Source: Gluconobacter thailandicus F149-1 = NBRC 100600 (GTDB lineage Bacteria > Pseudomonadota > Alphaproteobacteria > Acetobacterales > Acetobacteraceae). Taken from it: a DNA stretch of 63,461 nucleotides. Under the pieces are notes generated by a model, which was given only the letters and a program-made list of their open reading frames with translations, had not been told where the DNA came from and searched no databases. Below are positions 1 to 63,461 of this stretch, one piece after another; the first letter of the stretch is position 1; each line of letters opens with the position of its first letter. The stretch spans positions 1 through 63,461 of the forward strand of contig NZ_BANH01000050.1 of the NCBI RefSeq assembly GCF_000964465.1, given 5' to 3'. Both the position numbers and the translations under genes were made by a program.

Positions 1-44
1 GCCTCGCCGCAACCGTCATCTTCTGGCTATGAGTCCTGAGCCTA
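1..44 (+). repeat. Left copy of 44-bp inverted repeat
   Basis: The first 44 bases match the reverse complement of the last 44 bases of the window at 42 of 44 positions; the differences are at repeat positions 15 and 20. Identity stops abruptly after position 44. The copy begins with gcctcgccgcaacc and includes an ATG at 29-31. That ATG opens only a 16-codon frame here, whereas in the other copy it opens a 908-codon gene. The outer limits cannot be judged because both copies touch the window edge. Confidence 0.9.
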
Positions 45-396
45 TGAAAGTTTTTGTGGCAGATCTGGCTAGAGTCTGACGAAGAGTCGGAACCACAAAA
101 CCAGCTCGAGAGTATGGTAACCATTTGAAAAAAACTCCCCTTCAAGAGGGGGACCGATTTTCAATGTAGGGAGAAAGAGCCTTTGAAACCCTTCCAAAAG
201 GGTAACGGCCCGGCTCTTCTGCCCGGTTTCCGTCACTTCAGATGGCCATGGCAGACATGTCTTCCTCAATCTGATGCAGAAAACATTCTCTGCTCGCCAA
301 CTCAAATCCCATGCAGGATTGTGAATTATGTCTGGCCTGAAACAAGTTTGCAGACCCGGACATTCCGCAGATAACGGGTCATGCTAAAGGCGGAGA
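45..396. other. Non-coding stretch before the two-component system
   Basis: No credible gene lies here; the short frames on either strand have no homology I recognise. There are three structured elements. TTTTGTGG (52-59) pairs with CCACAAAA (93-100). A terminator-like hairpin sits at 128-153. A nested hairpin has outer arms AAGAGCC (175-181) and GGCTCTT (212-218) and inner arms ACCCTT (188-193) and AAGGGT (198-203). Together with the minus-strand T tract at 128-134 this could be a small RNA, or a leader read leftwards. I cannot assign it to a known RNA family. Confidence 0.4.
128..153 (-). terminator. Possible rho-independent terminator, minus strand
   Basis: On the minus strand a short G+C-rich stem (CCCCT pairing with AGGGG across a five-base loop) is followed by AG and seven T residues. 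The stem is only about five base pairs, so this is a modest candidate. No minus-strand gene ends here, which is why a small RNA or attenuated leader is suspected. Confidence 0.4.
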
Positions 397-1116
397 ATGA
401 CCAGCATGCCGCATCTTCTTATTGTCGATGATGACCGCGATATCCTGACGCTTCTGACAGGATTTCTTCAGAAACATCATTATCATGTCTCGATCGCCGA
501 AGATGGAGACGCGATGTTCTCGCTGCTCAAACGCGAAACTGTCGATCTCATTATTCTCGACATCATGCTTCGCAAGGAAGACGGGTTCAGTTTGTGCACC
601 CGTTTGCGGGCATCATCCCAAATTCCTGTCATCATGCTGTCTGCCATGGCCGATCACACGGATCGTGTCGTCGGGCTCGAAATCGGAGCAGACGATTACC
701 TGACCAAGCCGTTTGATCAACGCGAACTGCTGGCACGGGTCAAAGCCGTTCTGAGACGAACCTCCGAGCGCCTCACCGCAGTAGAGACACCAACACGTCC
801 CCTGCTCCACTTTGGGGGCTGGAAACTGGATGTGGCACGCAGGGAGCTCCGCTCTGCCGACAATTCCCTCGTGATGTTGTCCGGGGGTGAGTTCGATCTT
901 CTTCTGTCCTTCGTCGAACATCCCCAGCGGGTTCTGACCAGAGACCAACTGATGGATCTCGCACGCGGCTCCATGCATGCAGCCTATGACCGCAGCATTG
1001 ACGTTCAGGTCAGCCGCCTGCGCCACAAACTGGAAGATGACCCCAAAAACCCGGCCCTGATCCGAACAGTCAGAAATGGCGGCTATATTTTCTCCGAGAC
1101 TGTAAAACGCTCATGA
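397..1116 (+). CDS. OmpR/PhoB-family response regulator
   Basis: This 239-residue protein is a DNA-binding regulator of a two-component system. The receiver domain (about 5-120) has the acidic pocket D11-D13, the phosphoacceptor D55, S82 and K104. The C-terminal winged helix (about 135-235) ends with the typical RTVRNGGYIF wing segment. AAAGG lies six bases before the chosen ATG; a second ATG nine bases further in is also possible, with GGAG before it. The gene overlaps the downstream kinase by four bases (ATGA), so the two are coupled and surely partners. Family assignment is firm. The signal and target genes cannot be told from sequence; an OmpR/EnvZ-like role in envelope or osmotic response is only a guess. 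Confidence 0.93.
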   Translation: MTSMPHLLIVDDDRDILTLLTGFLQKHHYHVSIAEDGDAMFSLLKRETVDLIILDIMLRKEDGFSLCTRLRASSQIPVIMLSAMADHTDRVVGLEIGADDYLTKPFDQRELLARVKAVLRRTSERLTAVETPTRPLLHFGGWKLDVARRELRSADNSLVMLSGGEFDLLLSFVEHPQRVLTRDQLMDLARGSMHAAYDRSIDVQVSRLRHKLEDDPKNPALIRTVRNGGYIFSETVKRS

Positions 1117-2489
1117 GACGTCTGTCCCTGCTGGAAGACACAATCACACGCCGCCTTGCTATCACGGTTACGCTTGCTGCCGGTGTCACCCTGCTGGTGC
1201 TTCAGCTGTTTTTCACTTTTGGCGGCCAGTGGGCCAAACCGGACATTCAGGAGACCGGGCTGCTGGGAGTGGTCGGTACCGTAATCCGGATGGTTGAAGT
1301 GGCTCAGCCGTCTGACAGGTCACACCTCATAGAGGCAGCGAATACTAATGAAGTCCATTTCGCATGGTATGAGAAAGACAGTCATGTCTCTCACCTGCTC
1401 GAAACAGGACATTACCGCGAAGATGAAGTCGGACAGAGCTGGCATTTTCTACAGCCTTACCTGCGCCGCTACCCCAGCAAGATCGTCGTCTTCCAGGAAG
1501 ACAACCCCGTCTCTCAGGAATCCGGTCTGCCCTATGATCGTCACCGGTTTCGGGATGCTTATTTTGTCGGTGTACGTTTCGGGGATGGAAGCTGGATCCT
1601 GTGCGTTGCTCTCGAACGTGTCTGGGGCCTCTATAGCCCTCAGCGCCTCTCCCTTCAGGGATTGATGCTTGCGCTGTGGGTCATTGCCGTTTCCATGATT
1701 GCATCCCGTCAGATGTCTCGTCCGATTGAGCATCTTGCCCAAGGGGTGAAGCAGCTCGGCCTTCAGCCCCGCACGGCCCATATCGATGAAAAAGGACCAA
1801 GAGAGATTTCTCTCGTCGCCCAGACGATCAACGGCATGCAGGCCCAGATCCAGCGTTTCATCGAACACCGTACGACAATGCTCGCTGCCATTTCCCATGA
1901 TCTGCGCACGCCACTGACCCGGATACGCCTGCGGGGCGAGTTCATTCAGTGCTCACAGCAGCAGACCGCCCTTTTCCGGGATGTAGACGAAATGCAGGCC
2001 ATGATTGATGGCGCGCTGTCCTTCTTCCGCGATGACGCGTCTGGCGAAGAGAGCATCATGTTCGACCTGCCGGGCCTTCTCCAGACCATCGCTTATGACT
2101 ACTGCGACCAGGGCCATACGGTCGAATATCAGGGTCCCGGAAAAGCCAGCTATGTTGGTCGTCTCTATGCTCTAAAGCGCGTCTTCACAAATCTGGTCGA
2201 GAACGCCATCAAATACGCCACACCGCCGACAATCGACCTCGAAATCCAGCCAAATGGCGATTTTCTGGTCTTTATCCGGGACACGGGGCCCGGCATTCCG
2301 GAAGAGAGCCTGCCACGCGTTTTTGATCCCTATTTTCGTCTGGACAAATCCCGCAACAGACAAACGGGAGGCGTGGGACTGGGGCTGACCTCCGCCCAGA
2401 CGATCATCCGCTCCAATGGTGGAGACATCACCATGACCAACAGACCGGAAGGTGGCCTTGAGGTCTGCGTTCATCTTCCGAAGATCTGA
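1113..2489 (+). CDS. Membrane sensor histidine kinase
   Basis: This 458-residue kinase is the partner of the preceding regulator. Membrane helices are predicted near residues 15-36 and 181-198 and enclose a periplasmic sensor segment of about 145 residues. A HAMP-like linker (about 199-250) follows. The dimerisation/phosphoacceptor box is SHDLRTPLTR with H262. The ATPase domain shows the N box NLVENAIKYA, the G1 box DTGPGIPEE and the G2 box GGVGLGLTSAQT. All catalytic boxes are intact, so it should autophosphorylate and transfer to D55 of the regulator. The architecture resembles EnvZ, but the periplasmic domain is not one I recognise and the stimulus is unknown. Confidence 0.93.
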   Translation: MRRLSLLEDTITRRLAITVTLAAGVTLLVLQLFFTFGGQWAKPDIQETGLLGVVGTVIRMVEVAQPSDRSHLIEAANTNEVHFAWYEKDSHVSHLLETGHYREDEVGQSWHFLQPYLRRYPSKIVVFQEDNPVSQESGLPYDRHRFRDAYFVGVRFGDGSWILCVALERVWGLYSPQRLSLQGLMLALWVIAVSMIASRQMSRPIEHLAQGVKQLGLQPRTAHIDEKGPREISLVAQTINGMQAQIQRFIEHRTTMLAAISHDLRTPLTRIRLRGEFIQCSQQQTALFRDVDEMQAMIDGALSFFRDDASGEESIMFDLPGLLQTIAYDYCDQGHTVEYQGPGKASYVGRLYALKRVFTNLVENAIKYATPPTIDLEIQPNGDFLVFIRDTGPGIPEESLPRVFDPYFRLDKSRNRQTGGVGLGLTSAQTIIRSNGGDITMTNRPEGGLEVCVHLPKI

Positions 2490-2509
2490 ACTGCGGACTC
2501 AAGAGGCAT

Positions 2510-2545
2510 AAAAAACCCCGCCTGACTGCTCAGACGGGGTTTTTC
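2510..2545. terminator. Bidirectional terminator between kinase and rsmB
   Basis: CCCCG-c-CTG pairs with CAG-a-CGGGG around a short loop. An A tract precedes the stem and a T tract follows it, so it works on both strands. It separates the convergent kinase gene (plus) and rsmB (minus), and its T tract runs up to the rsmB stop codon. Confidence 0.88.
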
Positions 2546-2546
2546 A

Positions 2547-3887
2547 TCAGACCTTGATCAGGCGGGCAGCGAAAAAGCCATCCATCCCACCGCGATCCCA
2601 CCAGAGACCGGGATGCGTCCGGAAGAACCCTTCCGGCGTGCGGGCGATGGACATCTCTGCCAGTTCCGCGTCCGTAAAGGGCTCGTGCCTCCAACCGCCG
2701 CGTTCCAGTGCAGCGCGAATACGATCCGGCCCTTCTTCATCCTGAAGGGAGCAGACGGCATACATCAGCATCCCACCCGGCTTGAGCATCTCGCGTGCGG
2801 CATCAATAAAGGCATCCTGCCCCTGAGCCAGTGCGGTCACATCGCGGGGACGCTTGATCCACAACACGTCCGGGTGACGACGGAACGTCCCGGTCGCCGA
2901 GCATGGCGCATCCAGCAGAACCGCATCGACAGGAGCCTGCGGGCGCCAGATCAGGCCATCTGCCACGATCGTTTCAGCCGATACACGCATCCGCGCGATA
3001 TTCTCACGCAGCCGCACGGCACGGGCTTCTTCTTTCTCGATGGCAACGACCTGCGCTCCCGCCGTTGCCAGCTGCGCTGTCTTGCCACCGGGCGCCGCAC
3101 ACAGATCAATGACGGCCTTGCCAGAGACATCGCCCATCAGCTTCACGGGCATTGCGGCAGCAACGTCCTGTGCCCAGAACTGCCCCTCCTCAAAACCTTC
3201 CATCGCGAAAATACGCGTTCCGGCCGGGAAGCGCACAGTCCCTGTCGGCAGAACGTCCCCGCCTTCTGGAATGGTTGCCCCGGGGCGCATGCTCAGATCC
3301 AGCGGAGCTTCACGATGAAGACCACGGGAAATGGAGCGCGCACGTTGCCCCCATGCACCCCACATCCAGGGCTGCACATCCAGACGAGCCTCATCCAGAC
3401 CTTCCAGCAGATCCCGTCCCTCACGGGCCACCCGACGCAGAACCGCATTGGCCAGCCCGGCGAACGGAGCCAGTCCACGCCGGCGCAGAAGATCCACGAT
3501 CGTGCCAACCGCCGCATGAGGCGGCGTTTCCAGATGCAGAAGCTGCGCCACGCCAAGCAGGAGCGCACAACGGACAGGTTCAGGCGGCTCCCGGCGCAGC
3601 ATCGGCTGCAAAACTTCGGTCATGCTGCCAAGATAGCGTAGCGTCGTCGCAGCCAGACGGTGCGCGGATGCACGATCCCGCAGATCCATCGGTCCGGCAC
3701 GATCCAGCGTCGTTTCCAGCATGCGGCGGTGCTCAACCACACCACAGACAATATCAAAGGCAAGGTCGCGTGTCGGGTCAGGCGCAGGACGGCGATCCTG
3801 TCCCTGTTTCGGACGGCGTACTCCCTGACGGGAAGCGGACGGGTTCTTCGGACGGCCGGAGCCGCGGGGGGGCGTATTCTGTGTCAT
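2547..3887 (-). CDS. rsmB: 16S rRNA (cytosine-5)-methyltransferase RsmB
   Basis: RsmB (Fmu/Sun) transfers methyl from SAM to C5 of a cytosine in 16S rRNA (C967 in E. coli numbering). The N-terminal part resembles the NusB-like RNA-binding domain. The C-terminal Rossmann methyltransferase shows the SAM-binding DLCAAPGGKT, the motif IV LLDAPCSATG and the motif VI YAVCSLQ with the second conserved Cys. The frame is open 43 codons further upstream, but that extension overlaps yggS and looks non-coding, so the ATG giving MTQNTPPRG (446 residues) is preferred. A basic, disordered linker of about 35 residues precedes the folded part. The gene is divergent from yggS with about 75 bases between starts. 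The alternative name RsmF is less likely. Confidence 0.9.
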   Translation of the reverse strand: MTQNTPPRGSGRPKNPSASRQGVRRPKQGQDRRPAPDPTRDLAFDIVCGVVEHRRMLETTLDRAGPMDLRDRASAHRLAATTLRYLGSMTEVLQPMLRREPPEPVRCALLLGVAQLLHLETPPHAAVGTIVDLLRRRGLAPFAGLANAVLRRVAREGRDLLEGLDEARLDVQPWMWGAWGQRARSISRGLHREAPLDLSMRPGATIPEGGDVLPTGTVRFPAGTRIFAMEGFEEGQFWAQDVAAAMPVKLMGDVSGKAVIDLCAAPGGKTAQLATAGAQVVAIEKEEARAVRLRENIARMRVSAETIVADGLIWRPQAPVDAVLLDAPCSATGTFRRHPDVLWIKRPRDVTALAQGQDAFIDAAREMLKPGGMLMYAVCSLQDEEGPDRIRAALERGGWRHEPFTDAELAEMSIARTPEGFFRTHPGLWWDRGGMDGFFAARLIKV

Positions 3888-3962
3888 TCTCAGGCGTCGA
3901 TCTCTCGCATGCTGCCGAAATCGCATCTTGCGGCTTCGGACGCAATGGAGTCTTCTGCCGAC

Positions 3963-4643
3963 ATGTCCGATCAGATTGCAGAAAATCTCTCCCTTATCCG
4001 CAGTCGCATCATTCATGCGTGCGAAATTTCGGGGCGTTCAGCCTCGGATGTTGGCCTCGTCGCCGTCAGTAAATTCCATCCGAAAGAGGCCGTTGAAGCC
4101 GCTCTGAAAGCCGGTCAGCGCGTTTTCGGGGAGAACCGCGTTCAGGAAGCAACCTCCAAGTTTCCCGATCTTCGTCACACATGGCCGGACCTGCGCCTTC
4201 ACATTATTGGTGGCCTCCAGACCAACAAGGCCGTTGACGCCTGCCGCATTGCGGATGTGATCGAGACTCTGGACCGCCCCGCTCTGGCCGATGCGCTGGA
4301 AAAGGCTGCGGACAAGGTCGGTCGCCTGCCGGAGCTTCTCGTGCAGGTCAACACCGGGAACGAACCCCAGAAGTCGGGCGTCCCGCGTGACGATGCTGAT
4401 CCTTTTATCAAGACCTGCATGACAAGGTTCGGGCCCAAAGTGCGTGGTCTGATGTGCATTCCCCCCGAAGATGAAGATCCGGCGGCGCATTTCCGTTTTC
4501 TGACAGACCTGGCCAGGCGCCACGGCCTGCCCGTTATCTCCATGGGCATGTCCGCTGATTTCGAGACGGCAATTGCCGAAGGAGCCACACTTGTCCGGGT
4601 TGGAAGCGCCATCTTTGGCACCCGCCCCATGACAGCTTCCTAA
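3963..4643 (+). CDS. yggS: YggS-family PLP homeostasis protein
   Basis: This 226-residue protein belongs to the COG0325 family (YggS/PROSC/PLPBP), a single-domain PLP-binding barrel related to alanine racemase that buffers free pyridoxal phosphate. The PLP lysine lies in LVAVSKFHP, followed by the family signature FGENRVQEA. The segments LLVQVNTGNEPQKSGV and LSMGMSADFE-like ISMGMSADFE near the C-terminus are also typical. The frame is open further upstream, but MSDQIAENL at 3963 matches the usual family start; a start at MESSADMSD six codons earlier is possible, and GGAG lies just upstream. It is divergent from rsmB. Kup follows after about 107 non-coding bases. Confidence 0.92.
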   Translation: MSDQIAENLSLIRSRIIHACEISGRSASDVGLVAVSKFHPKEAVEAALKAGQRVFGENRVQEATSKFPDLRHTWPDLRLHIIGGLQTNKAVDACRIADVIETLDRPALADALEKAADKVGRLPELLVQVNTGNEPQKSGVPRDDADPFIKTCMTRFGPKVRGLMCIPPEDEDPAAHFRFLTDLARRHGLPVISMGMSADFETAIAEGATLVRVGSAIFGTRPMTAS

Positions 4644-4750
4644 CGCACAGCTTGCATCTCTGTAAGAAATCTTGTCATGAGGGGGAAAGACCGCGCTCCG
4701 ACACATCCGTGTGAGGTGTTGGACGTGCTGGTTTCCTGCGATGCCCGTAA

Positions 4751-6775
4751 ATGGAACCACCGATGCCAGAACACGACGGCGATAACGCTCCCCCTCCTCA
4801 TCCCGGTGCCGGGGTTCCTGTGGAGAGCGGGGAAGTTCTTCAAACCATCGATCAGGCACGCAAGGACGGCAATACATCCGAACTCGGGGACACCGAAGGA
4901 AGCAGTCACAAAAAGCCGGCAGGCTTTGGCGCGCTTCTGGCGGTTCTCGGCGTGGTATACGGCGATATCGGAACCAGCCCGCTTTATGCCCTTCAGTCCT
5001 CCGTCGGCATTGTAGGGTCCGTAAAGCATCCGGCCGCGGCCTGGGAAGTTATGGGGCTGGCCAGCCTCACTTTCTGGGCACTCATGCTGATCGTGACATT
5101 CAAATATGTCCTGCTCATCATGCGCGCCGATCACGACGGTGAAGGCGGCATCATCGCCCTGATGTCCCTCGCCCAGCGCGTCTGCAAATCCCAGAAATTC
5201 CGATGGCTGTTCGGCCTCGTCGGTATTGCCGGGACCTGTCTGTTCTTCGGGGACAGCATCATCACCCCCGCCGTCTCGGTTCTTTCTGCCGTGGAAGGCC
5301 TTGAGATTGCGGTCCCGTCAGCGAGCCACGTGATCATCCCGATCGCAATGGTCGTCCTCGTGGCGCTCTTTACGGCCCAGGCCATGGGAACGGGCAAGAT
5401 CGGCCGGGCTTTCGGCCCGATCATGGTACTCTGGTTTACGGTCCTCGCCATTCTCGGCGTCCGCGGTATTCTCCTGTATCCCCATATTCTGCTGGCCCTG
5501 TCCCCGACTTTTGCGCTCGAATTCATCGTTCTGCACGGCTACCTGTCCTTTATCGCGCTGGGTTCAGTCGTGCTGTCCGTGACGGGTGCCGAGGCGCTTT
5601 ATGCCGATATGGGGCATTTCGGCCGCGCGCCAATCCGCAAGGCCTGGCTGTTTTTCGTGCTGCCATCCCTGACGCTGAACTATTTCGGCCAGGCAGCGCT
5701 GCTGATTCATGACCCCGCCACTCTGGCCAATCCGTTCTATCATCTGGGGCCACACTGGGCGCAGATCCCCCTGCTTATCCTTGCCACCTTCGCAACCGTT
5801 ATTGCGTCTCAGGCAGGCATCTCGGGCAGCTTCTCACTCTGCCGACAGCTCATCCAGCTCGGCTATCTGCCCCGCACCCGTATCGTTCATACGAATGCGG
5901 ATGAGGAAGCACAGATCTATCTGCCGTCCCTGAACTGGATCCTTGCCTTCGGTGCACTGGTGCTGGTGCTGTCCTTCCGCTCATCCGCAGCGCTGGCAGC
6001 GGCTTACGGTATCGCAGTGACCGGCACCTTCCTCTGCACCTGCGTGCTGGCCATGGTCGTGTTCCGTCGCACTTTCAAATGGAGCGCTGTGGCCGTTGGT
6101 GCCGTGTTCGGCCTCTTCTTCGTGGTGGATGCAGTGTTCTTCTCCGCCAACGTGTTGAAGATCCCGGATGGTGGCTGGGTGCCGCTTGCCATCGGCATCA
6201 TCAGTACCATCGTCATGACAACCTGGAAGCGCGGCCGCGGCCTGATTGCGGCCAAACAGCAGGCGGACTCCATGCCGATGGCCTCGTTCCTGGCCCGTCT
6301 CCCGCAATCGCGCACCATCCGTGTGCCAGGCCTCGCTGTCTTCCTGACAGCCAACCCGGATATCGTTCCGAACTCGTTGCTGCATAACCTGAAGCACAAC
6401 AAGGTCCTGCATGAGCACGTCATGTTCGTGACCGTGCAGAACCTCGACCAGCCGGAAGCAGAGCGCGGCCACCGCACGATCGTTCAGGAACTGGCACCGA
6501 ACATCCATCGCGTGATCGTCCGGTACGGTTTCATGGAAATGCCGAACCTGCCCCGTGCCCTGATGGAACTGAAAGCGCTGGGCGTGGCGTTTGACGCCAT
6601 TCAGGCTTCCTATTTCACATCCCATGAGCTTGTGGTGCGCTCCCGCGTTCCCAAAATGCAGCTTTGGCGGATGTGGCTGTTCCTGCTCCTCCTGCGTAAT
6701 GCTGCCTCGACCACGGAATTCTTCCGCATCCCGCCTGACCGCGTGGTGGAGTTCGGCGTCCGGATTGCAATTTGA
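4751..6775 (+). CDS. kup: Low-affinity potassium transporter Kup
   Basis: This 674-residue inner-membrane protein of the KUP/HAK/KT family imports K+ with protons. The N-terminal hallmark GVVYGDIGTSPLYALQ and the following DHDGEGGIIALMSLAQR are both present. About twelve hydrophobic segments cover roughly residues 55-510, and a soluble C-terminal domain of about 130 residues completes the usual length. The first 55 residues are hydrophilic and variable. The start is uncertain: the ATG at 4751 has no clear ribosome site, whereas the ATG at 4763 has GGAA seven bases upstream. The stop overlaps the TTG start of hemW by four bases, so the two are probably translated from one message despite unrelated roles. 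Confidence 0.95.
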   Translation: MEPPMPEHDGDNAPPPHPGAGVPVESGEVLQTIDQARKDGNTSELGDTEGSSHKKPAGFGALLAVLGVVYGDIGTSPLYALQSSVGIVGSVKHPAAAWEVMGLASLTFWALMLIVTFKYVLLIMRADHDGEGGIIALMSLAQRVCKSQKFRWLFGLVGIAGTCLFFGDSIITPAVSVLSAVEGLEIAVPSASHVIIPIAMVVLVALFTAQAMGTGKIGRAFGPIMVLWFTVLAILGVRGILLYPHILLALSPTFALEFIVLHGYLSFIALGSVVLSVTGAEALYADMGHFGRAPIRKAWLFFVLPSLTLNYFGQAALLIHDPATLANPFYHLGPHWAQIPLLILATFATVIASQAGISGSFSLCRQLIQLGYLPRTRIVHTNADEEAQIYLPSLNWILAFGALVLVLSFRSSAALAAAYGIAVTGTFLCTCVLAMVVFRRTFKWSAVAVGAVFGLFFVVDAVFFSANVLKIPDGGWVPLAIGIISTIVMTTWKRGRGLIAAKQQADSMPMASFLARLPQSRTIRVPGLAVFLTANPDIVPNSLLHNLKHNKVLHEHVMFVTVQNLDQPEAERGHRTIVQELAPNIHRVIVRYGFMEMPNLPRALMELKALGVAFDAIQASYFTSHELVVRSRVPKMQLWRMWLFLLLLRNAASTTEFFRIPPDRVVEFGVRIAI

Positions 6776-7923
6776 CCGAACCTCTTTCCCTCTACATTCA
6801 CTGGCCGTTCTGTCTGGCGAAGTGCCCCTACTGCGACTTCAACTCCCATGTTCGGGATGAAATTCCGCAGAAGCGCTTCGCCGCGGCACTTCGTCAGGAA
6901 CTGGCACATGACGCGGCCCGTCTTGGCCGTCGGCCGCTCCGCTCCATTTTCTTCGGCGGCGGCACACCCTCCCTGATGGCCCCGGAAACGGTCGCAGCCC
7001 TCATTGAGGACGCTCATCAGCTCTTCGATGCCGAGCCGGATCTGGAAATCACACTCGAAGCAAACCCGACCAGTGTGGAAGCCGGAAAATTCTCCGCCTT
7101 CCGTCAGGCCGGCGTGAACCGTGTGTCTCTCGGGGTCCAGAGCCTTCGGGACGACGCGCTCAAAATGCTGGGCCGGGAACATTCAGCCGGGCAGGCCATT
7201 CAGGCGCTTGAAACCGCCCGTTCCCTGTTTCCGCGCATCTCTTTCGATCTGATTTACGCCCGACCGGGCCAGAGCGATGCGGACTGGGAGAACGAACTAT
7301 CCACGGCACTTGATCTCGTGGCCGATCATCTGTCGCTCTATCAGCTCACAATCGAGCCCGGTACAAAGTTCGAAGCCCTGCATCGCAGAGGCGAACTCAC
7401 CCTGCCAGACGCTGACGACGCTGCACGCCTCTATGACCTCACAGGCGAGACAGCAGCCCGACACGGCCTTCTGCCCTATGAAGTCTCCAACTACGCAAAG
7501 CCGGGCGCGGAGAGCCGCCATAATCTGACATACTGGCGCTATGCGGATTACATCGGCATCGGTCCGGGAGCGCATGGACGCCTCACACTGGAAGACGGGC
7601 TATACGCCACCCGACGCCATCGTGCACCAGAGCCATGGGCAGAGCGTGTTGAGAAAACAGGGTCTGGCAGCACGGATGAAACAGCCCTTTCCCCTGAAGA
7701 AAAGGGACGGGAAGCTCTCCTGATGGGGTTACGCCTCTCCGAAGGGATCGACGAAACCCGCTTTGCCCACCGTACGGGTCGAGCCCTGGAAGACTGCGTA
7801 GATCCGCTCATGCTCGAAGCCTGCCTGGAAGAGAATTACCTCATCCGGGAGGGGGGTATTCTGAAAGCGACGGACGAAGGCAGACTTCGTCTTGAAGCAT
7901 TGCTGGCAAGATTGGTCACTTGA
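6772..7923 (+). CDS. hemW: HemW, radical-SAM heme chaperone
   Basis: This 383-residue protein is HemW, the HemN-like radical SAM protein that binds heme and inserts it into respiratory enzymes. It was formerly called oxygen-independent coproporphyrinogen III oxidase-like. The 4Fe-4S motif is CLAKCPYC near residue 14, preceded by LYIHWPFC. FFGGGTPSLM, the ITLEANP segment and the VSLGVQSL segment are standard. The C-terminal HemN domain is present. The start codon is TTG, overlapping the kup stop as TTGA; no earlier start is possible without running into kup. The N-terminal Cys pattern fits HemW rather than true HemN, which has an extra N-terminal extension. Confidence 0.92.
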   Translation: MTEPLSLYIHWPFCLAKCPYCDFNSHVRDEIPQKRFAAALRQELAHDAARLGRRPLRSIFFGGGTPSLMAPETVAALIEDAHQLFDAEPDLEITLEANPTSVEAGKFSAFRQAGVNRVSLGVQSLRDDALKMLGREHSAGQAIQALETARSLFPRISFDLIYARPGQSDADWENELSTALDLVADHLSLYQLTIEPGTKFEALHRRGELTLPDADDAARLYDLTGETAARHGLLPYEVSNYAKPGAESRHNLTYWRYADYIGIGPGAHGRLTLEDGLYATRRHRAPEPWAERVEKTGSGSTDETALSPEEKGREALLMGLRLSEGIDETRFAHRTGRALEDCVDPLMLEACLEENYLIREGGILKATDEGRLRLEALLARLVT

Positions 7924-7958
7924 GGGCATGATCGGGCGTTAATCAACAGGACGAGACC

Positions 7959-9041
7959 ATGCGCCGATCCATTCTCTCTGCCCTCCTTGCTGCCTGCGCT
8001 TTGACCGGCATTGCTTCCGCTGCCCCTGCCACTCCGGGATATTACATTCAGGACAACGACTATCTCGGCCCAGGCGGCTCGGACATCCAGTCCGTCATTC
8101 CGCTGCTGAACCGCGACAACGTCAATCTTCTGGCCCTGACCGTCACAATCGGCGATGACTGGGAAAATGCTGAATCGGCCCATCTGCGTCGTTTCCTCGA
8201 AATCGCCAAACAGACACAGATTCCCGTGGCCGATGGCGCGACGTTGCCGCTCGTCAACACGGTGGCCGCAACGCGACTGCGTGAAAAGCAGTACGGCACC
8301 ATTCCCTGGAAGGGCGCCTGGGGCGGCCTCGGCTCTATCGACAAGACGCCCGCGACCCAGCCTGCCCTCGGCAAGATGCCGGATGGGACGGCGCACATGG
8401 CCGTCGATCCGCTTCCCGCCGCCATGGTTCTGATCAAGGCTGTTCACGACCATCCCCATCAGGTCACGATCATTGCCGCAGGTCCGCTGACGAACCTCGC
8501 CCTCGCCATCCGTCTGGACCCGACCTTCGCAGCAAACGCCAAGCAGCTTGTGTTCATGGGGGGCCTGCTGGATTCCAGCATGATGTCCGTCACCGGCAAT
8601 GCTGACTTCGCATCCGACTTCAACATGATCGCCGATCCGGAAGCAGCACACATCACCCTCACAGCACCCTGGGCGTCCATCATCTGTGTTGGCAATGTCT
8701 CGAACGACATCATGATGACGCATGAGTTGATGAACCGCATTGCGGAGAAGAAGACGCCCGTTACGGAGTATCTTCAGAAGTTCTACGCTCCGCTGCCGCT
8801 CTGGGATGAGCTGACATCCGCCATCGCTGTCGAACCAGATCTGGTTACGAAGTCCGTCGATGCCTATATGGACATCAACACAGCTCCTGGCATGGATTAC
8901 GGTCACGCCCATGTCTGGCCTGAAGCCACAGCACCAAAGGGTATGGGTCTGCAGAAGGTGAAGCTCGTTCAGTCCGTAGACACGAAGCGCTTCATCGACG
9001 AGTTCGTCGCTCAGGCACAGAACGCCATGGGTACCCACTAA
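7959..9041 (+). CDS. Secreted nucleoside hydrolase-like protein
   Basis: This 360-residue protein has a clear Sec signal peptide (about 1-22, ending ASA-A) and is predicted to be periplasmic. The mature part matches the inosine/uridine-preferring nucleoside hydrolase family: a central VTIIAAGPLTNLALAIR, then VFMGGLL, and FNMIADPEAAHI near the substrate-binding end. The usual N-terminal calcium motif DTDxGxDD is replaced by DNDYLGPGGSD, so metal binding may be altered. AGGA lies seven bases before the ATG. It stands 35 bases after hemW and 22 bases before the next gene, so it may be co-transcribed with both. Purine or pyrimidine nucleoside salvage from the periplasm is the natural inference. 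Confidence 0.82.
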   Translation: MRRSILSALLAACALTGIASAAPATPGYYIQDNDYLGPGGSDIQSVIPLLNRDNVNLLALTVTIGDDWENAESAHLRRFLEIAKQTQIPVADGATLPLVNTVAATRLREKQYGTIPWKGAWGGLGSIDKTPATQPALGKMPDGTAHMAVDPLPAAMVLIKAVHDHPHQVTIIAAGPLTNLALAIRLDPTFAANAKQLVFMGGLLDSSMMSVTGNADFASDFNMIADPEAAHITLTAPWASIICVGNVSNDIMMTHELMNRIAEKKTPVTEYLQKFYAPLPLWDELTSAIAVEPDLVTKSVDAYMDINTAPGMDYGHAHVWPEATAPKGMGLQKVKLVQSVDTKRFIDEFVAQAQNAMGTH

Positions 9042-9063
9042 GACCTGAAGAAAGGCAACCGAC

Positions 9064-53971: not shown

Positions 53972-54178
53972 CTCGTTCCACTTTTCATTATTGCAAACCG
54001 TTACACTTGTCTCGCAGGATCAATTTCCCCCGCAAGTTACTTTTTTTGTTCAAAAAAGCATTTTTTTCGAAAAAGCCTCTTGCCACTGTCCGGGGAGGTT
54101 GGTAAATCACCGCCACCGACCGAGAGGACGCCAACACGGCACCAAACGGACGGTCCAAAGATCGCTGAAAAGCGGTTT
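53972..54178. other. Non-coding gap before tRNA-Asp
   Basis: No gene is seen. The stretch holds several A and T runs of six or seven bases around 54040-54075, which may bend the DNA or help a promoter. It must contain the promoter of the tRNA gene and that of the divergent protease gene, but no convincing hexamer pair could be picked out. Confidence 0.4.
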
Positions 54179-54255
<77 letters not shown>

Positions 54256-54421
54256 CTCTTTACATGAGTGGTGTATAAATCTCCCCAAAAAACTAAAATC
54301 CACTGAAATGATGTCGGTTACATACCGTTGCACTTCGTTTTGAAGCGATAAGACTTTGGTAAGGATACGTTAACGCCTGCCATACCACACTGATACCTCC
54401 TTCTTTCTTCAAGGATGTATC

Positions 54422-54667
54422 ATGTCTTCCAGCATTTCTTCCCTTGGCTCTTCTGCCATGTCATCCCTTTACAGCACTGGAAGCCGCCAGGACACGTCTT
54501 CAACGTCTTCCACCCAGGAAACGACAACGACGACATCCACCAATGCTGACGGGTCTGTCACGACGACTGTCACTGATTCTTCGGGTAATATCGTTTCCGA
54601 GACAACGACTGGCGGCACATCTTCTGGTTCTACCAACAGCGACCGCGAGCTTGACCTTACTGCCTGA
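54422..54667 (+). CDS. Ser/Thr-rich small protein
   Basis: This 81-residue frame starts at an ATG with AAGGA seven bases upstream. About half the residues are Ser or Thr (SSSISSLGSSAMSS; TTTTTSTNADGSVTTTVTD). There is no signal peptide or helix, so it looks disordered. The central GSVTTTVTDSSGNIVSETTT has a periodic beta-like pattern as in short repeat proteins. Good ribosome site and no overlap with other genes support it as real, but no family is recognised. 54256-54421 between the tRNA and this gene holds no other gene. Confidence 0.55.
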   Translation: MSSSISSLGSSAMSSLYSTGSRQDTSSTSSTQETTTTTSTNADGSVTTTVTDSSGNIVSETTTGGTSSGSTNSDRELDLTA

Positions 54668-54678
54668 GACAGGTCCAG

Positions 54679-55443: not shown

Positions 55444-55447
55444 GAGG

Positions 55448-56287
55448 TCAGATCCAGTAAGGGATACGGGCGCGCATCCGGCAGAACAGGGCTGCAGCCA
55501 GTCCCCATAATAGAGCACCCTGAACAATCGCTGCGATCCACAAAGAGGAACGCACATCATATCCCATCAGGGGACCACGCATGATTTCGAGGATGGGATA
55601 AAACGGATCCAGCAGCAGATACTGGCGGCCCACATAAATCAGATCCGGCTTCCAGATCACAGGCGTGACGAAGAAGAAGATCTGAAGGATGGAGGACATG
55701 ATTGGCGCAATGTCCCGAAAGCGGGCGCCCAGCATGCCAATCAGGAGAATGATTGCAAAACTGTCCAGAAACCAGATGGGCAGACTGACAAGCAGGCTCC
55801 AGCTCTGTTTGGGCCAGAGATGATAAACGCCGAAAACGACAGCAATCACTACGACGTTGTGCAGGAACGTCAGCACATTGCGGACAACGAGCCGGATAAC
55901 GGGAAGTGTCGCCGGGATACGTCTTGCATGGAAGAGAGACGTGCTTTGCGTAAAGACCGTCGCCGCATCGTTGATGACGCCGCTGATATATCCCCACAGA
56001 ACGATCGAAAGCGACAGAAACGGCAGGTAGTGCGGCAGATCCATGTGGAAAAGGTAGCCGTAAACCACCCCCATTGCCGCAACCATGATGGCCGTTGAAA
56101 GCGTCAGCCAGAATGGCCCAAGAATTGAACCGCGATACCGTAGCTTGATATCCAGCCAGCCCAGCGCAAGCGCCAGCGGCAGCAGACGCAGTCCAGCCTT
56201 CAGATCATCCAGAGCGGCCCGTACACGGCCGAATCCCCTCTGCGGTGCGAGATCAAGTATGGGAGTACGGGAGTTGCTGTCTTCCAT
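55448..56287 (-). CDS. ABC-2 type polysaccharide export permease
   Basis: This 279-residue membrane protein matches the KpsM/Wzm family: GWLDIKLRYRGSILGPFWLTL near residue 45, cited as LGWLDIKLRYRGSILGPFW, and six predicted helices ending in a short basic tail. The start MEDSNSRTPI at 56287 has GGGAGAGG upstream; the longer frame lacks such support. With the ATPase it would export capsule, O-antigen or exopolysaccharide. No glycosyltransferase or polymerase genes are in the window, so the sugar cannot be named. It is divergent from queE. Confidence 0.9.
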   Translation of the reverse strand: MEDSNSRTPILDLAPQRGFGRVRAALDDLKAGLRLLPLALALGWLDIKLRYRGSILGPFWLTLSTAIMVAAMGVVYGYLFHMDLPHYLPFLSLSIVLWGYISGVINDAATVFTQSTSLFHARRIPATLPVIRLVVRNVLTFLHNVVVIAVVFGVYHLWPKQSWSLLVSLPIWFLDSFAIILLIGMLGARFRDIAPIMSSILQIFFFVTPVIWKPDLIYVGRQYLLLDPFYPILEIMRGPLMGYDVRSSLWIAAIVQGALLWGLAAALFCRMRARIPYWI

Positions 56288-56409
56288 GAGCCTCTCCCTA
56301 CCATGAAAGACGTTTCTGCCCACCCCTGTGACCTGAGGAAACATATACCTGCGAATAAAAGAATGTTTTCCCTTGCATCCGGCGCGATCCTCGCCGACAT
56401 GCTGCGGTC

Positions 56410-57051
56410 ATGTCTTATGCTGTGAAGGAAATGTTCGTAACCCTCCAGGGAGAGGGTGCGCAGACGGGTCGTGCGTCCGTGTTCTGCCGGTTTGCCGGGT
56501 GCAATCTGTGGTCAGGCCGTGAGCAGGATCGTGAAACGGCGGCATGCCGCTTCTGCGATACGGACTTTATTGGAGTGGATGGTGAAGGCGGTGGCCGCTT
56601 CAAAACCGCTTCCGAACTGGCCGAAACCATCGAACAGTGCTGGAAAAATGCTGCGGACGAAAGTGGCCGACGTTACGTCGTCTTCACGGGTGGCGAACCT
56701 CTCCTGCAACTGGATGCGGAACTGATTGCCGCTGTCAAAGCCAATGGGTTCGAAATTGCCGTCGAAACGAACGGTACAATTACTGCACCCGCGGGGATCG
56801 ACTGGGTCTGTGTCAGTCCCAAGCCGGGCGGCCCTCTCGTCCAGACCAGCGGCGCGGAACTGAAACTCGTTTATCCACAGACAGAGCTTCCGCCTGAAAT
56901 GTTCGATGGCCTGTCGTTCCAGCATTTCTGGCTTCAGCCCATGGATGGGCTCGCACGGCTGGAAAACACACAGGCTGCGGTGGCGTACTGCCTCGCGCAT
57001 CCACGCTGGCGCCTGTCCCTGCAAACCCACAAACTGATCGGAATCCCATGA
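56410..57051 (+). CDS. queE: 7-carboxy-7-deazaguanine synthase QueE
   Basis: QueE is a radical SAM enzyme converting 6-carboxytetrahydropterin to 7-carboxy-7-deazaguanine in the queuosine pathway. This 213-residue protein opens [20 protein letters not shown], and the Cys ligands are in [11 protein letters not shown] and [10 protein letters not shown] (CxnCxxC type with a long insertion as in this subfamily). [11 protein letters not shown] is the GGE motif, and VETNGT follows. It begins the queE-queC-queD operon, with four-base overlaps between genes. The 122 bases upstream hold the divergent promoters. Confidence 0.94.
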
Positions 57052-57749
57052 GCAACGCCGCACTCGTCCTGTTTTCCGGCGGTCAGGATTCTGCAACGTG
57101 CCTGGCCTGGGCGCTGTCCCGCTTCGACCGCGTCGAAACCGTCGGCTATGCTTATGGCCAGCGTCACCTCGTAGAGCTCGAATGCCGGGATACGCTCCGG
57201 ACCCGGATGGCCGAACACTCCCCGGAATGGAAAGCACGACTTGGCGAAGATCACACGATTGATCTCGCCTCCCTCGGCGCTTTGTCCGAAACGGCCCTGA
57301 CACGCGAAGCCGAGATCGGTTTCAATGAAAGCGGCCTGCCCAATACATTTGTACCAGGCCGCAACCTGATTTTTTTGACCTTTGCAGCTGCCCTCGCCTA
57401 TCGCCGAAACGTCAAGCACATCGTCACCGGTGTGTGTGAGACCGACTATTCAGGCTATCCGGACTGCCGTGACGATACAATCAAGGCCCTTCAGGTCGCG
57501 CTCAATCTCGGTATGGACCAGCGCTTCGTATTGCATACACCGCTGATGTGGATCGACAAGGCACAGACCTGGGATCTGACAGAAGAACTTGGCGGCAAGA
57601 CGCTCGTTGATCTGATTAACCATGAAAGCCATTCGTGCTACATGGGAGACCGGACCCATCATCACGCATGGGGCTATGGCTGCGGCACGTGCCCGGCCTG
57701 TGAACTTCGCGCGGATGGCTGGCGTCGATACTGCGAGAGCCAGGTATGA
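57048..57749 (+). CDS. queC: 7-cyano-7-deazaguanine synthase QueC
   Basis: QueC makes preQ0 from 7-carboxy-7-deazaguanine, ATP and ammonia. This 233-residue protein has the ATP pyrophosphatase loop [34 protein letters not shown], and ends with the zinc-binding Cys set [18 protein letters not shown] (here cited as [14 protein letters not shown]; the full spacing is C-x-x-C-x-x-C with one earlier Cys). It overlaps queE and queD by four bases each. Confidence 0.95.
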
Positions 57750-58279
57750 CGGCCGAACTCGTTTTTACCCGCCGTTTCTGCATGGGTCACCGGCTGATTA
57801 CCGGAAGCAGCGAGAAATGTGCCATTCCACATGGTCACAATGAATATGTGAAGGTAACGCTCAGGCCCGTAGAAGAGATACGCCTGGACGGTCATCAGAA
57901 CATGATCCTGCCGTTTGCAGAGGCCAAGACGCGCTGGCATGACTTTGTGGACAACAGCCTCGATCATGCTCTTCAGCTTTCGGAGCATGACCCGCTTCTG
58001 GCATGGTTTCGCGCTCATGAACCTGAGCGCGCACGTAGGATCGTCGTTACGCCCGGCGACCCGACAACCGAAGTTATGGCCGCTCTCCTGCTCGCCAAAC
58101 TGACGGCTATTCTGGCTGATCAGGGCTCCAGCCTACGCGTTTACGCTCTGGAACTGGAAGAAACCCCCACCAACACCGTGCGCCTGACGGGTGATCCGGC
58201 CTTCTATCTGCCACAAGTCAGCCGAGCTCCACAGGAGTGCTGGTGGAACCGGGCTGATATGAGTATTTCAGACGTCTGA
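57746..58279 (+). CDS. queD: 6-carboxytetrahydropterin synthase QueD
   Basis: QueD converts dihydroneopterin triphosphate to 6-carboxy-tetrahydropterin, the first committed step to preQ0. This 177-residue protein belongs to the 6-pyruvoyl-tetrahydropterin synthase family. The catalytic Cys and zinc His are in [22 protein letters not shown] and later DNSLDHAL; the Glu is in [11 protein letters not shown]. It is the last gene of queECD and converges on folE, with six bases between stops. FolE supplies its substrate. Confidence 0.92.
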
Positions 58280-58285
58280 CGATTG

Positions 58286-58924
58286 TCAGCCGCGGAGGAG
58301 CGACAGGATCTCCATCCGCGCGGCGTGGTCGTGCTTCCATGTTCCCCGAGCTACGGTTGTCACGGTCGTCGAACCGGGGGAACGAACGCCGCGCATACTC
58401 ATGCACATATGCTCGGCCTCGATTACGACCAGAACGGCTTCCGGTGCCAGAACATCTTCCATGGCCTGTGCCACCTGATCGGTCATGCGCTCCTGAAGCT
58501 GCGGACGACGGGCAAAACCTTCCACAACACGTGCCAGCTTGCTCAGCCCTGTCAGACGACCACCCGCTGGCAGATAGGCTACATGCGCCTTGCCATGTAC
58601 CGGAAGCAAATGGTGTTCGCACATGGAATGAAAGCGGATATCTTTCACAATCACAGCGCCATGATGCTGATCGGCGGAAAACTGCGTTTTCAGATGCTCA
58701 CGTGGGTCTTCATACAGGCCGCCGAAAACTTCCAGATACATCTTGGCCACACGTTGCGGCGTATCCTGCAATCCTTCGCGCTCGGGGTTTTCTCCCACGG
58801 CCTCCAGAATAGTCCGAATAGCACTGGCAAGCCGCTCTTCCGCATCTACAGGCCGTGACAGAGCACCTAGCGGTCGCTGATCGTCCTTGCAGGCAGTCAT
58901 GGCAGTGGCGTTCAGATCTGTCAT
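58286..58924 (-). CDS. folE: GTP cyclohydrolase I FolE
   Basis: FolE turns GTP into dihydroneopterin triphosphate, the shared precursor of folate and queuosine. This 212-residue protein has [17 protein letters not shown], zinc and catalytic residues in [20 protein letters not shown] and the later [19 protein letters not shown], quoted in part as [12 protein letters not shown]. All key Cys and His are present. It is the last gene of the folP-folBK-folE unit, starting eight bases after folBK. It is convergent with queD. Confidence 0.96.
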
Positions 58925-58932
58925 GGCGGGTT

Positions 58933-59820
58933 TCAGGCTCCTTCGTTCCCCGACGCGGCTTGACCCGGACCACGCCGGATCACATCTCCGCGGATGCGAG
59001 GCAGGACTGCTAGCGCGTCCGCCACCCGGCGTCCACCAATCAGCCGCTCCGGCGCGATTTCTGCCAGCGGCTCCAGCACGAAAGCCCGCTCAAAAAGGTG
59101 CCGGTGAGGCACCGTCAGGACACGGTCGGACAAGCTGCGATCGTCATAATACAGCAGGTCAATATCCACTGCCCGTGCCCCCCATCGCAGTCCCGGAATG
59201 CGGCCCAGCTCTCCCTCAAGCGCCTTGCAGAGCCTGAGCAGGGCATGAGGGGCCAGCGTCGTGCGGCCCACAGCACAGAGATTGACGAAAGCCGGCTGAT
59301 CGATCCCACCCCATGGCGCGCTGTCATAGAGGGAAGATACATCCGTGATCTCCAACCCCTCTTCCATGGACAAGCGATCCAGCGCTGCATTCAGGGTAAC
59401 TTCGCGCTCTCCAAGATTGGCGCCCAGAGAGAACGCCACATCATGAATACTGTGACGCGTCACAATCGTCGCTGTTTCGGATACCGGATACGGCACTGGA
59501 GCAGAGGGCTTGTGGACAGTCACAAGCACAACCTCAACCCGGTCCAGACGAGCCAGAATTTCGTCAGCAATCCGTCCAGCCAGCGCCTCGATAAGGCCCA
59601 TCGGCTTTCCAGTGACAATTTCCGCAGCAATATCGCAGAGTGTCCCGTAACAGACGGCCTGAAGGTAGTCGTCACCCTCAATTGCACCTGACAGGTCGGC
59701 CCGGATCTCAATATCAATGATGAACCGCTGCCCAACACGGTTCTCTTCCGGCAGAACCCCATGATAGCCAAACAGACACAGGTCTCGCACGAAAACAGAG
59801 GTCAGAGGAGCCGAAATCAT
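58933..59820 (-). CDS. folBK: Fused dihydroneopterin aldolase-HPPK (FolB-FolK)
   Basis: One 295-residue chain holds two successive folate enzymes. Residues 1-120 are FolB ([18 protein letters not shown]; the Glu and Lys region [11 protein letters not shown]). About 126-285 are FolK, 6-hydroxymethyl-7,8-dihydropterin pyrophosphokinase ([53 protein letters not shown]). The start overlaps the folP stop as ATGA; a start seven codons earlier is unlikely. The fusion couples production and pyrophosphorylation of the pterin. In related alphaproteobacteria the two are often separate genes. Confidence 0.93.
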
Positions 59821-60662
59821 GCGTTCTCCTTGAGAAGGCATCGAATGGAGAGAGCGTCAGCGTGTTCACGAATGTCATGAACACGCAGAATATCGGCCCC
59901 CAGATCTGCTCCCACAAGATTAGCCGCTAATGTTCCCGCCAGACGGTCTTCTATCGGTCGGCCCAACAAATATCCAAACATGGATTTCCGGGAAAGCCCG
60001 AGCAGAATCGGACGCCCATACTCCCGTTTCAACGTCCCGAGGGCTGCGATCGCCTGAACATTCTGGTCCTGGGTTTTTCCAAACCCGACGCCGGGATCCA
60101 GAATAAGGCGATTTCTGTCGATGCCCGCTTTTTCGGCAAGCTCCAAGGAATGATCGAAAAAGCGCCGCCAGTCTGCCAGCAGGTCCAGTTGATCATCCAC
60201 CTCATGCCGGTTGTGCATCACCACCGCCCAGGCTCCGCTATCCGCAATAACAGACGGCATTTCCGGATCCGCATGGAAGCCCCAGACATCATTGATAAGC
60301 CGCACACCACTCTGCAAAGCCTTGCGCGCAACTACGGCTTTCGTTGTATCGACAGAGAGGGCCACCCCTTCTGGAGCCAGCCTGTTAATAACGGGTTCGA
60401 GCCGGGCCCATTCTTCATCTGCCGGAACAAGCCTGAACCCCGGCCTGGTCGATTCTGCGCCGATATCTAAAATATCCGCCCCGTCCGTCAGCATTTCCCT
60501 GGCATGGGCTATGGCTGTCTCGGGTGACTGAAAACGCCCTCCATCAGAAAATGAATCCGGAGTGACATTCAGAATACCCATCAGGACAGGACGTCCCGCC
60601 GCATGAGGCTTCGACAGCCAGGAAGCACCGCCGTCAGGCGCAGACAGAAAAAACTGTTTCAT
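59817..60662 (-). CDS. folP: Dihydropteroate synthase FolP
   Basis: FolP joins the pterin pyrophosphate with p-aminobenzoate and is the target of sulfonamides. This 281-residue TIM barrel has GILNVTPDSFSDGGRF, DIGAESTRPGF, LINDVWGF, VVMHNR, LILDPGVGFGKT and the late VLRVHDI-type ILRVHDIREH. All substrate loops are intact. It leads the folP-folBK-folE unit, and starts 45 bases after the stop of the EAL gene upstream on the same strand, so read-through from that gene is possible. Confidence 0.95.
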   Translation of the reverse strand: MKQFFLSAPDGGASWLSKPHAAGRPVLMGILNVTPDSFSDGGRFQSPETAIAHAREMLTDGADILDIGAESTRPGFRLVPADEEWARLEPVINRLAPEGVALSVDTTKAVVARKALQSGVRLINDVWGFHADPEMPSVIADSGAWAVVMHNRHEVDDQLDLLADWRRFFDHSLELAEKAGIDRNRLILDPGVGFGKTQDQNVQAIAALGTLKREYGRPILLGLSRKSMFGYLLGRPIEDRLAGTLAANLVGADLGADILRVHDIREHADALSIRCLLKENA

Positions 60663-60706
60663 CGTACCTTACATGAGACGCATGACGGCCTTGCGGATCA
60701 GACCAT

Positions 60707-63433
60707 TCAAACCTGCGCAAAAGAGGACAGTGGCAGAGGATCCCAGACAAGATCTTCCGCGGGGCAAGGACGACCGAGAAAATAACCTTGCACTTCCGTA
60801 CACCCCTGGGTCCGGAGAAATCGGTAATGTTCCAGGGACGATACCCCTTCTGCGGTCACGGCGATACCCAGATCGACCGCTAGTTCGATAGCGTTCCGCA
60901 CAATGGCCGCGCTTCGGGAATCCTGAAACAGATCCTGCACGAAAATGGTATCGAGCTTGATTTTGGAGAACGGGAACAGGCGCAGATAACTCAATGTTGA
61001 AAAACCCGTGCCGAAATCATCCAGCACCAGTCTGACACCCTGCCGGTCCAGCAACTGGAACGCATGACAGACACTCGGGTCCCGTTGCAATCCCAGGGTT
61101 TCAGTCACCTCGATCTGCAAGCGCCGTGGATCCAGTCCAGCACGGGACAATGTGGCCAGGATCCGTTCCGCAACCTGAGGCTGAGAGAACTGGGACGCCA
61201 TCATATTGACCGCCACCCAGAGATGGGAGGGCCATTTCACCGCAGCCTCACAGGCAGTTTCAAGAACCCAGAAGTCAAACTCACTTCCACGTCCAGAAAC
61301 CTCAATCAGACCGATGACCCGTTCAATTGAAAGCGGTCCATGTCGGGAGCCATTCCAGCGCGACAGCGCCTCAAACCCGTTGATTGCTCCCGTCTGCGCG
61401 TCAACAATCGGCTGGTAAACGAGAGAAAAAGCCCGTTCCTGAACAGCCTGCCTCACATCCTGAAGCAGATACTGCTGGCGCTCTTCATCTTCCAGTGTAA
61501 GGCGCTCATAGAAAGAATATCGCTCCTGAGTTTTTCCTCTTGCATCATGCAGGGCCATGTCGGCCGCTTCCAGGAGGATTTCGAGAGTTTGTCCTTTGCC
61601 AGACACCGGGGCAATTCCGGCGGACACTCTGGCGGAAAGAACCGCGCCGTCGCTTAGAACCATCGGTTTCTCAAGCAATGCCATCAATTCAAGAGCCAGA
61701 GATTTTGCGTCTTCCAGATCTGAAGAAAGAGGATTTTGTACGATCGGGAAAAACGCAAATTCCGCCTTGCCGTAACGCCCCGCCACACCTGGCTTGTCCT
61801 TGGCGAACCGTCGGAGGCGATTTCCCGTTTCTGAAAGCAGTTCATTCCGGGAGGTCTCGTCCTGCGTCTCCACACCATCACGAAAAAAATTATCCAGTGA
61901 CAGAAACAGGAGTGCGCCGAAACGAAATAGCGCAATTTTTTCAAGCAGTGCACTTTGCAACTGCTCACAGAAAGCAAGACGGTTCAAAAGCCCTGTCAGT
62001 TCATCATGTCGGATACGTTCGGCATAAAGAGATCTCGCATTCCGCTGCCTGGTTACATTCGCACCGATCCCACGATAACCATGCAGAACCCCGTGCCTGA
62101 AAACAGGGCGCCCTGTCATAAGCCACCAAATGGTATTCTCACCGACTGTGACAGGGATACACAGGTCCCTGAACGCCAGCCTGTTGGCAAGACAGTGGGC
62201 TAAATGTGCTGACGCAGACATGGGCTGCCCGTCAATCAAGGGAAGGGGGCACCCCGGCTGAATGACAGGTAACGCCAGAAGATCAACAAGCCGCATACCG
62301 GCCATCTCTTCAGAAGATCGTTTCAGAAGGGTGCAAAATTCGTCGGAGGGCGTCTGTATGCAACCATTTGCATCGATTTCCCAGATCCAGTCACCAATAT
62401 GGCTGTCAGATCCGCGGGCCATCATGCTCATGATCTCATTTCGCTCCCGCTGTTCAAGACGGTCCTGCAAAAGCCGCTGCAACAGATAGCGAGCCAGCCG
62501 GCTGACGCCGATTACGAAAAGGCCGCAGACTGTCGTTTCCAGAAAGAGCGAAAGAATAAGGAATGCCAGCGCACCGCAGAAATGTTGCGCCATCACCAGA
62601 CATGCTGCGGCCACGACAGGAAGCACCAGAGCCTCAACAGCTCCACTGACAACCGAACACAACAGAAGGGGCGCAAAAAGCCCCATGCAGACTATCACTG
62701 CAACAATATGCGCCTTCTCACTCGGCATATGGAAGACGCAGATCAGAAACCAGCCCCAGACCACACCCAGCGCGCCATTCAACAGTCTGAGCGATCGGGC
62801 TATCTGACTGTATGTCCAGGCGTATCCGAGATTTTTAGCAGGCGAAGCCTCCCTTCCGGCAAACCAGCTTCTGATCGGACATTCACAAAAACTGCTGAGG
62901 AAAGGCCATTTCGAAATGGTCCATAAACCCACAAGGCTCTCCACACATGCCACAAGCATGAGTGCGGCCCAGTAATCTATTGACCAGAGACAGACCGCAA
63001 CAACAGGCGCACTGAGTAGTTGAGCAAAAAGAAAGAACGGGAGAAAAAGAGCCAGAACCCGCAGACGTGAATAGTCAAATGCAGATTGCAAATGCGTCGG
63101 TACGCGGGAATGACCCAGATGAAGGGACTGAGCCAGAATTCGGCCTGAACGAAACGTCAGAAAGCGAAGCAGACGCCTTGGGGAAAAGAAACGCACAAAA
63201 CGAAAGACGCCCCCTTCCGTATTGGAAAATGGCTGTTTTTCCTGAAAATTTCCAGGACTGAAGGAGTGATCCGATGCGAAGTCGCTCCTTACTTCGCGTG
63301 GTTTTCTGTCTGCCATCGGGGCCGTACCAGGGGAGCGTTTTGTTTCGACTGCCCACTTGAACAGCTGCCTGACGCAGCAATCCAAGGTGGGAAACAGAAG
63401 ATTACACAGATTATGTTTAGGCTCAGGACTCAT
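60707..63433 (-). CDS. EAL-domain cyclic-di-GMP phosphodiesterase with degenerate GGDEF
   Basis: This protein (908 residues from the first ATG) has about 110 mostly basic residues, then six or more membrane helices (about 125-340), a PAS-like segment (about 360-480), a GGDEF domain and an EAL domain. The GGDEF motif is degenerate (YGKAEF), so cyclase activity is unlikely. The EAL domain keeps NGFEALSRW, VNMMASQF, EVTE, LVLDDFGTGFS, KIKLD, AEGV and QGYFLG, so hydrolysis is likely. The ATG at 63433 lies inside the inverted repeat and has no ribosome site; an ATG at 63313 (MADRKPREV) is the alternative start. Confidence 0.88.
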   Translation of the reverse strand: MSPEPKHNLCNLLFPTLDCCVRQLFKWAVETKRSPGTAPMADRKPREVRSDFASDHSFSPGNFQEKQPFSNTEGGVFRFVRFFSPRRLLRFLTFRSGRILAQSLHLGHSRVPTHLQSAFDYSRLRVLALFLPFFLFAQLLSAPVVAVCLWSIDYWAALMLVACVESLVGLWTISKWPFLSSFCECPIRSWFAGREASPAKNLGYAWTYSQIARSLRLLNGALGVVWGWFLICVFHMPSEKAHIVAVIVCMGLFAPLLLCSVVSGAVEALVLPVVAAACLVMAQHFCGALAFLILSLFLETTVCGLFVIGVSRLARYLLQRLLQDRLEQRERNEIMSMMARGSDSHIGDWIWEIDANGCIQTPSDEFCTLLKRSSEEMAGMRLVDLLALPVIQPGCPLPLIDGQPMSASAHLAHCLANRLAFRDLCIPVTVGENTIWWLMTGRPVFRHGVLHGYRGIGANVTRQRNARSLYAERIRHDELTGLLNRLAFCEQLQSALLEKIALFRFGALLFLSLDNFFRDGVETQDETSRNELLSETGNRLRRFAKDKPGVAGRYGKAEFAFFPIVQNPLSSDLEDAKSLALELMALLEKPMVLSDGAVLSARVSAGIAPVSGKGQTLEILLEAADMALHDARGKTQERYSFYERLTLEDEERQQYLLQDVRQAVQERAFSLVYQPIVDAQTGAINGFEALSRWNGSRHGPLSIERVIGLIEVSGRGSEFDFWVLETACEAAVKWPSHLWVAVNMMASQFSQPQVAERILATLSRAGLDPRRLQIEVTETLGLQRDPSVCHAFQLLDRQGVRLVLDDFGTGFSTLSYLRLFPFSKIKLDTIFVQDLFQDSRSAAIVRNAIELAVDLGIAVTAEGVSSLEHYRFLRTQGCTEVQGYFLGRPCPAEDLVWDPLPLSSFAQV

Positions 63434-63461
63434 AGCCAGAACATGATGGTTGCGGCGAGGC
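63418..63461 (-). repeat. Right copy of 44-bp inverted repeat
   Basis: Read on the minus strand, the last 44 bases match positions 1-44 at 42 positions. They contain the ATG at 63433 that opens the EAL protein and, six codons earlier in another frame, an ATG that makes a four-residue frame ending in the same TGA overlap. Similarity ends at 63418 towards the inside. The outer end lies at the window edge. Confidence 0.9.

Follow-up and report, generated by a model that had tools for sequence, protein, structure and literature searches.

The inverted repeat that bounds the window (the whole 63,461-base stretch of DNA analysed here) is formed by the right ends of two copies of an insertion sequence (IS) of the IS5 family that lie at assembly breaks; the finding is an ordinary one, of a kind already known. 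We put at about 97% the probability that two oppositely oriented IS5-family (IS427-like) copies of about 829 bp occupy TA sites separated by 63 kb, and that the contig stops inside each of them. Carrying this reading are identity with annotated IS5 ends, the number of copies at contig ends, a right-hand empty site with a TA duplication, and collinearity with a congener.

Direct comparison of bases 1-44 with the reverse complement of bases 63418-63461 gave 42 of 44 identical positions. On the inner side of the repeat, the next 100 positions agreed at 22, which is chance level. The preliminary description had reported this 42-of-44 match with a sharp inner end, and both parts were thus borne out. 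A 24-base core of the repeat occurs exactly twice in the window, compared with 0.00 occurrences expected from 100 dinucleotide-preserving shuffles. It had also been suggested that the window was picked because of the repeat. However, the window is the entire contig C142 (G000:C142:1-63461) of a draft genome of 191 contigs; therefore, both edges mark assembly breaks, and the repeat played no part in setting them.

We assign bases 1..44 (plus strand) to the right end of one IS copy, as these 44 bases are 100% identical to the right end of an IS on the Novacetimonas hansenii plasmid NZ_CP094849.1. By comparison with that element, the stretch contains the last transposase codons and the stop, down to base 32, followed by the right inverted repeat and the target-duplication TA at 43-44. 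The transposase of this copy reads toward the window, and the contig breaks within the IS. A second copy, oriented the other way, has its right end at bases 63418..63461 (minus strand; 95% identity); the target TA is at 63418-63419, and this end differs from the first at two positions. Both right ends face the window, and the two IS copies are therefore oppositely oriented. What lies between them, at 45..63417, is an ordinary chromosomal segment, as judged from collinearity with a congener and from Pfam scans.

The same IS ends are repeated throughout this genome. A search allowing 3 mismatches placed the right-end core at 14 sites, the two ends of the window included; although 3 mismatches were permitted, each of the 14 showed 0. 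All 14 right ends lie at contig termini, each no more than 40-44 bases from the edge of its contig. They fall into two types, GTCATC (11/14) and ATCATG (3/14), the right copy of the window being among the latter. Similarly, the left-end pattern of the N. hansenii element gave 18 matches in the genome, 18/18 at contig termini: 13 were exact, two (C122 and C146) had one mismatch in an otherwise identical sequence, one (C103) was a variant, and two (C88 and C163) diverged directly after the repeat. The counts of right ends (14) and of left ends (15-16) are thus about equal, as expected if the assembler failed to bridge a multicopy IS. IS-length repeats are described as breaking up short-read draft assemblies (PMC12858298). 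Short matches to the inner left portion of the IS also mark the two ends of contig C84 (7673 bases), one of 43 bases at 98% and the other of 44 at 91%.

Searches of the assembly with IS copies from two relatives returned ends, short pieces and diverged relatives only, and no complete IS interior; where the N. hansenii copy was matched over greater lengths, the matches were diverged, at 79% over 365 bases and 69% over about 750. The genome contains 12 PF01609 transposase matches, none of them on C142. Since the full interior is missing from the assembly, we infer, rather than read directly, that full copies bridge C168 to C142 and C142 to C160 in this strain. The copies at the window would presumably be as long as that of the relative.

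Identification of the element relied on its relatives. The 44-mer matched 225 plasmid records. Among the 20 of these that were listed, the annotation beneath it was an IS5 family transposase in 15, an IS630 in one, an IS4 in one and a hypothetical protein in two, and one record carried no annotation. When a collection of 84,980 species genomes was scanned for the exact pattern, 27 stretches were recovered, from Gluconobacter, Komagataeibacter, Novacetimonas, Acetobacter, Asaia, Rhodobaculum and one Zymomonas MAG. The N. hansenii plasmid carries an intact IS of 829 bp (locus L051) with the identical right end and flanking TA; its ends read GGCTCAGGACCCAT and ATGAGTCCTGAGCC. In this record the 44-mer takes in the final transposase codons with their stop, and then the right inverted repeat. 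The terminal inverted repeats are imperfect, reading GGCTCAGGACCCATTG... at the left and, when reversed, ...TATGAGTCCTGAGCC at the right. The main left-end type of the genome studied here is identical to the left end of this N. hansenii copy. An IS5 copy on the Acetobacter pasteurianus plasmid record NC_013210.1 has a right end 95.5% identical to bases 1-44. Both plasmid copies differ from those at the window in insertion site and host.

The annotated CDS range of the N. hansenii element is broken by 4 stops in one frame; it resolves into two ORFs, 131 and 129 aa long, that lie in different frames. These matched the Pfam families DUF4096 (1.1e-21) and DDE_Tnp_1_2 (5.8e-18). Against the IS5 model NF033580 (transpos_IS5_3), the second ORF scored 147.8, above the cut-off of 110, and the first scored 104.7, just under it. 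It was thus in the full-length relative, used in place of the copies at the window edges, that an IS5-type transposase with a DDE domain was found. From these comparisons, the elements at the window edges belong to the IS5 family and appear IS427-like, a grouping set by resemblance and not by formal ISfinder assignment.

The resemblance is to the IS427 group as described in PMC3281130, a group that includes IS1248 and ISPpa2 of Paracoccus. The N. hansenii element, at 829 bp, is close to the 832 bp of IS1248 and ISPpa2, and the group shares with the IS considered here a 2-bp target duplication, a transposase spread over two ORFs, short terminal inverted repeats and several copies per genome. 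In contrast to the two overlapping ORFs with a frameshift motif given for the group in that text, the ORFs of the N. hansenii element as listed do not overlap: counted from their first start codons, they span 1227-1622 and 1643-2032. The IHF-like motif described there had no counterpart in the 109 bases at the left end of the element, which were searched on one strand with up to 2 substitutions. Our literature search found no relevant paper on IS5 family insertion sequences in Gluconobacter.

We compared the edges of the window with 31 genomes, its own included. The left edge was matched in 23 of them, many of the matches being short, and the right edge in 6. In one congener (G013, apparently Gluconobacter frateurii NBRC 3264), both edges were matched on one contig: positions 43-63419 are collinear with G013:C1:229007-292346 (reversed) at 87.7% identity, with no rearrangement inside. 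A copy of the IS end is present elsewhere in the G. frateurii NBRC 3264 record NZ_BEWN01000001.1 (locus L024). Past the right edge, G013 continues into the sequence of our strain's own contig C160, and past the left edge into that of its own contig C168; C160 and C168 each terminate in an IS left end.

The right junction is uninterrupted in G013, where it reads ...GGGTTTTTTT-TA-AACATAATC..., a clean empty site with a single TA. In the strain studied here, the same junction reads ...GGGTTTTTTT TA [IS left end on C160] and [IS right end on C142] TA AACATAATC..., so that TA stands beside both ends of the IS. Together, the TA beside both IS ends here and the single TA in G013 indicate a target duplication of 2 bp, TA. 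By extrapolation from the matches, the edges of C160 and of the right side of C142 lie about 2 bases apart in G004 and about 360 bases apart in G008. Ten of the 12 congeners in which this adjacency was assessed matched C160 without the right edge of the window, and are uninformative. Gene order in congeners gives the ancestral order only.

At the left junction, TA is likewise present on both sides in our strain. However, G013 has no clean empty site there: 393 bases (G013:C1:292347-292739) that are missing from our strain lie between the left flanks. This piece holds a small ORF of 59 aa, lipoprotein-like by eye, that was matched in 13 of 26 genus genomes, G013 included, with 76% identity in G004 and 32-45% in the other 11; it had no match in our strain's own genome. 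Eight loci of this ORF were fetched. In four of them (G013, G004, G014 and G035) the ORF adjoins relatives of the genes at the end of C168; in the other four, no such gene lies within about 1.5 kb. Because the ORF occurs in other genomes of the genus, beside relatives of the C168-end genes in 4/8 loci, it is more likely that some 390 bp were lost beside the left IS in this strain than that they were gained in G013.

We propose that one IS inserted twice in a Gluconobacter chromosome, in opposite orientations, at TA sites that lie 63 kb from each other. As a multicopy element, it would not have been assembled through, and the contig would halt 44 bases into each copy, target TA included. A contig that halts in both copies would then show an apparent inverted repeat bounding the record. 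Three observations weigh against this reading: the missing IS interior, the left junction with its 393 extra bases in G013, and the five of the 20 listed plasmid records in which the 44-mer has an annotation other than IS5 or none.

The genes of the window fit an ordinary chromosomal segment, as the preliminary description had supposed. We scanned 77 ORFs against Pfam at E <= 1e-8, comprising 57 of at least 90 aa and 20 alternatives; the longest-first choice had taken some antisense ORFs, and the alternatives were those overlapping 19 unmatched ORFs, with short ones left out. Family matches were obtained for 38 of the 57 first-choice ORFs and 10 of the 20 alternatives, the latter including NusA, RimP, S15 and RbfA. 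The core content, collinear with G013 as described above, comprises IF-2, NusA, RimP, PNPase, TruB, S15, folate genes, a chemotaxis cluster and tRNA-Asp. No transposase or recombinase was matched at this threshold among the 77 ORFs, in agreement with the earlier account and with the lack of PF01609 matches on C142. A 662-aa frame at 21785-23773 (plus strand) is probably a mechanical ORF: it had no Pfam match at E <= 1e-8 and lies antisense to nusA (22004-23548, minus strand).

Several further features of the segment were seen. A 541-aa ORF at 31320-32942 (plus strand) has a Hint_2 domain. The chemotaxis cluster, at 46026-52897 (minus strand), is compact and contains response regulators, CheB, CheR, CheW, a CheA-like kinase, and STAS and MCP domains. 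A GGDEF-EAL gene lies within 60707-63433 (minus strand), the span of a mechanical ORF that extends into the IS end at the right edge, and its true start may differ. That IS sits upstream of the gene, its transposase points toward it, and it may influence the gene's expression.

The best surviving alternative is that RecA inverts the 63-kb segment through the two inverted IS copies, with both orientations present in the population or among strains. Such RecA-dependent inversion is possible in principle, as for any inverted IS pair: synteny places the copies inverted, with their right ends facing the window, and IS copies are named as general substrates for inversions in PMC12858298. Against this, the block and both of its flanks keep the order of G013, and the adjacency of the right side of C142 to C160 recurs in G004 and, roughly, in G008. 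C168 and C160 carry IS left ends of the same type, with no difference in the 40 bases read from each; consequently, no marker pairs the left ends with the right ends, and the orientation in this strain is unreadable from the assembly. We consider this alternative unlikely. Somewhat less likely still is the more specific proposal that the segment, with its chemotaxis cluster and several core genes, flips by homologous recombination between IS5 copies so that the population is mixed. The preliminary description had raised an invertible 63-kb segment, an idea in favour of which nothing positive emerged: the congener has the block in collinear order, and the contigs that continue it there both end in an IS left end. 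A dedicated site-specific inversion system was rejected, as no linked recombinase was found among the 77 ORFs at E <= 1e-8, a search that covered genes within the window.

Two further alternatives are very improbable. That the 63 kb move as one unit, as a composite transposon or genomic island, would suit a segment flanked by two inverted copies of one IS; however, the segment occupies the same place in G013, where the right junction is without an IS, and its content is core chromosome. That the 44-mer is a recombinase site or a regulatory repeat unrelated to any IS drew on the first impression of the sequence, and it conflicts with a 44-mer that encodes a transposase C-terminus with its stop codon plus an IS terminal repeat, with the position of 14/14 genome copies at contig ends, and with the lack of any recombinase match within the window at E <= 1e-8. 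As for the earlier suggestion of a dispersed regulatory or insertion-derived element, the insertion-derived half holds, given the IS5-family ends at 14 contig termini, and the regulatory half does not. Many scattered copies of the 44-mer had been named in advance as evidence against a special pair, and the 14 right ends in this genome are such copies.

The reading as two IS5-family copies carries a caution: a near-perfect inverted repeat around a whole record is what is expected of a draft contig that ends in two inverted copies of a multicopy IS. For the organism itself, the count of contig ends puts the IS5 element at about 14-16 copies in this genome of Gluconobacter type, and the left IS end marks a probable small loss from the chromosome.
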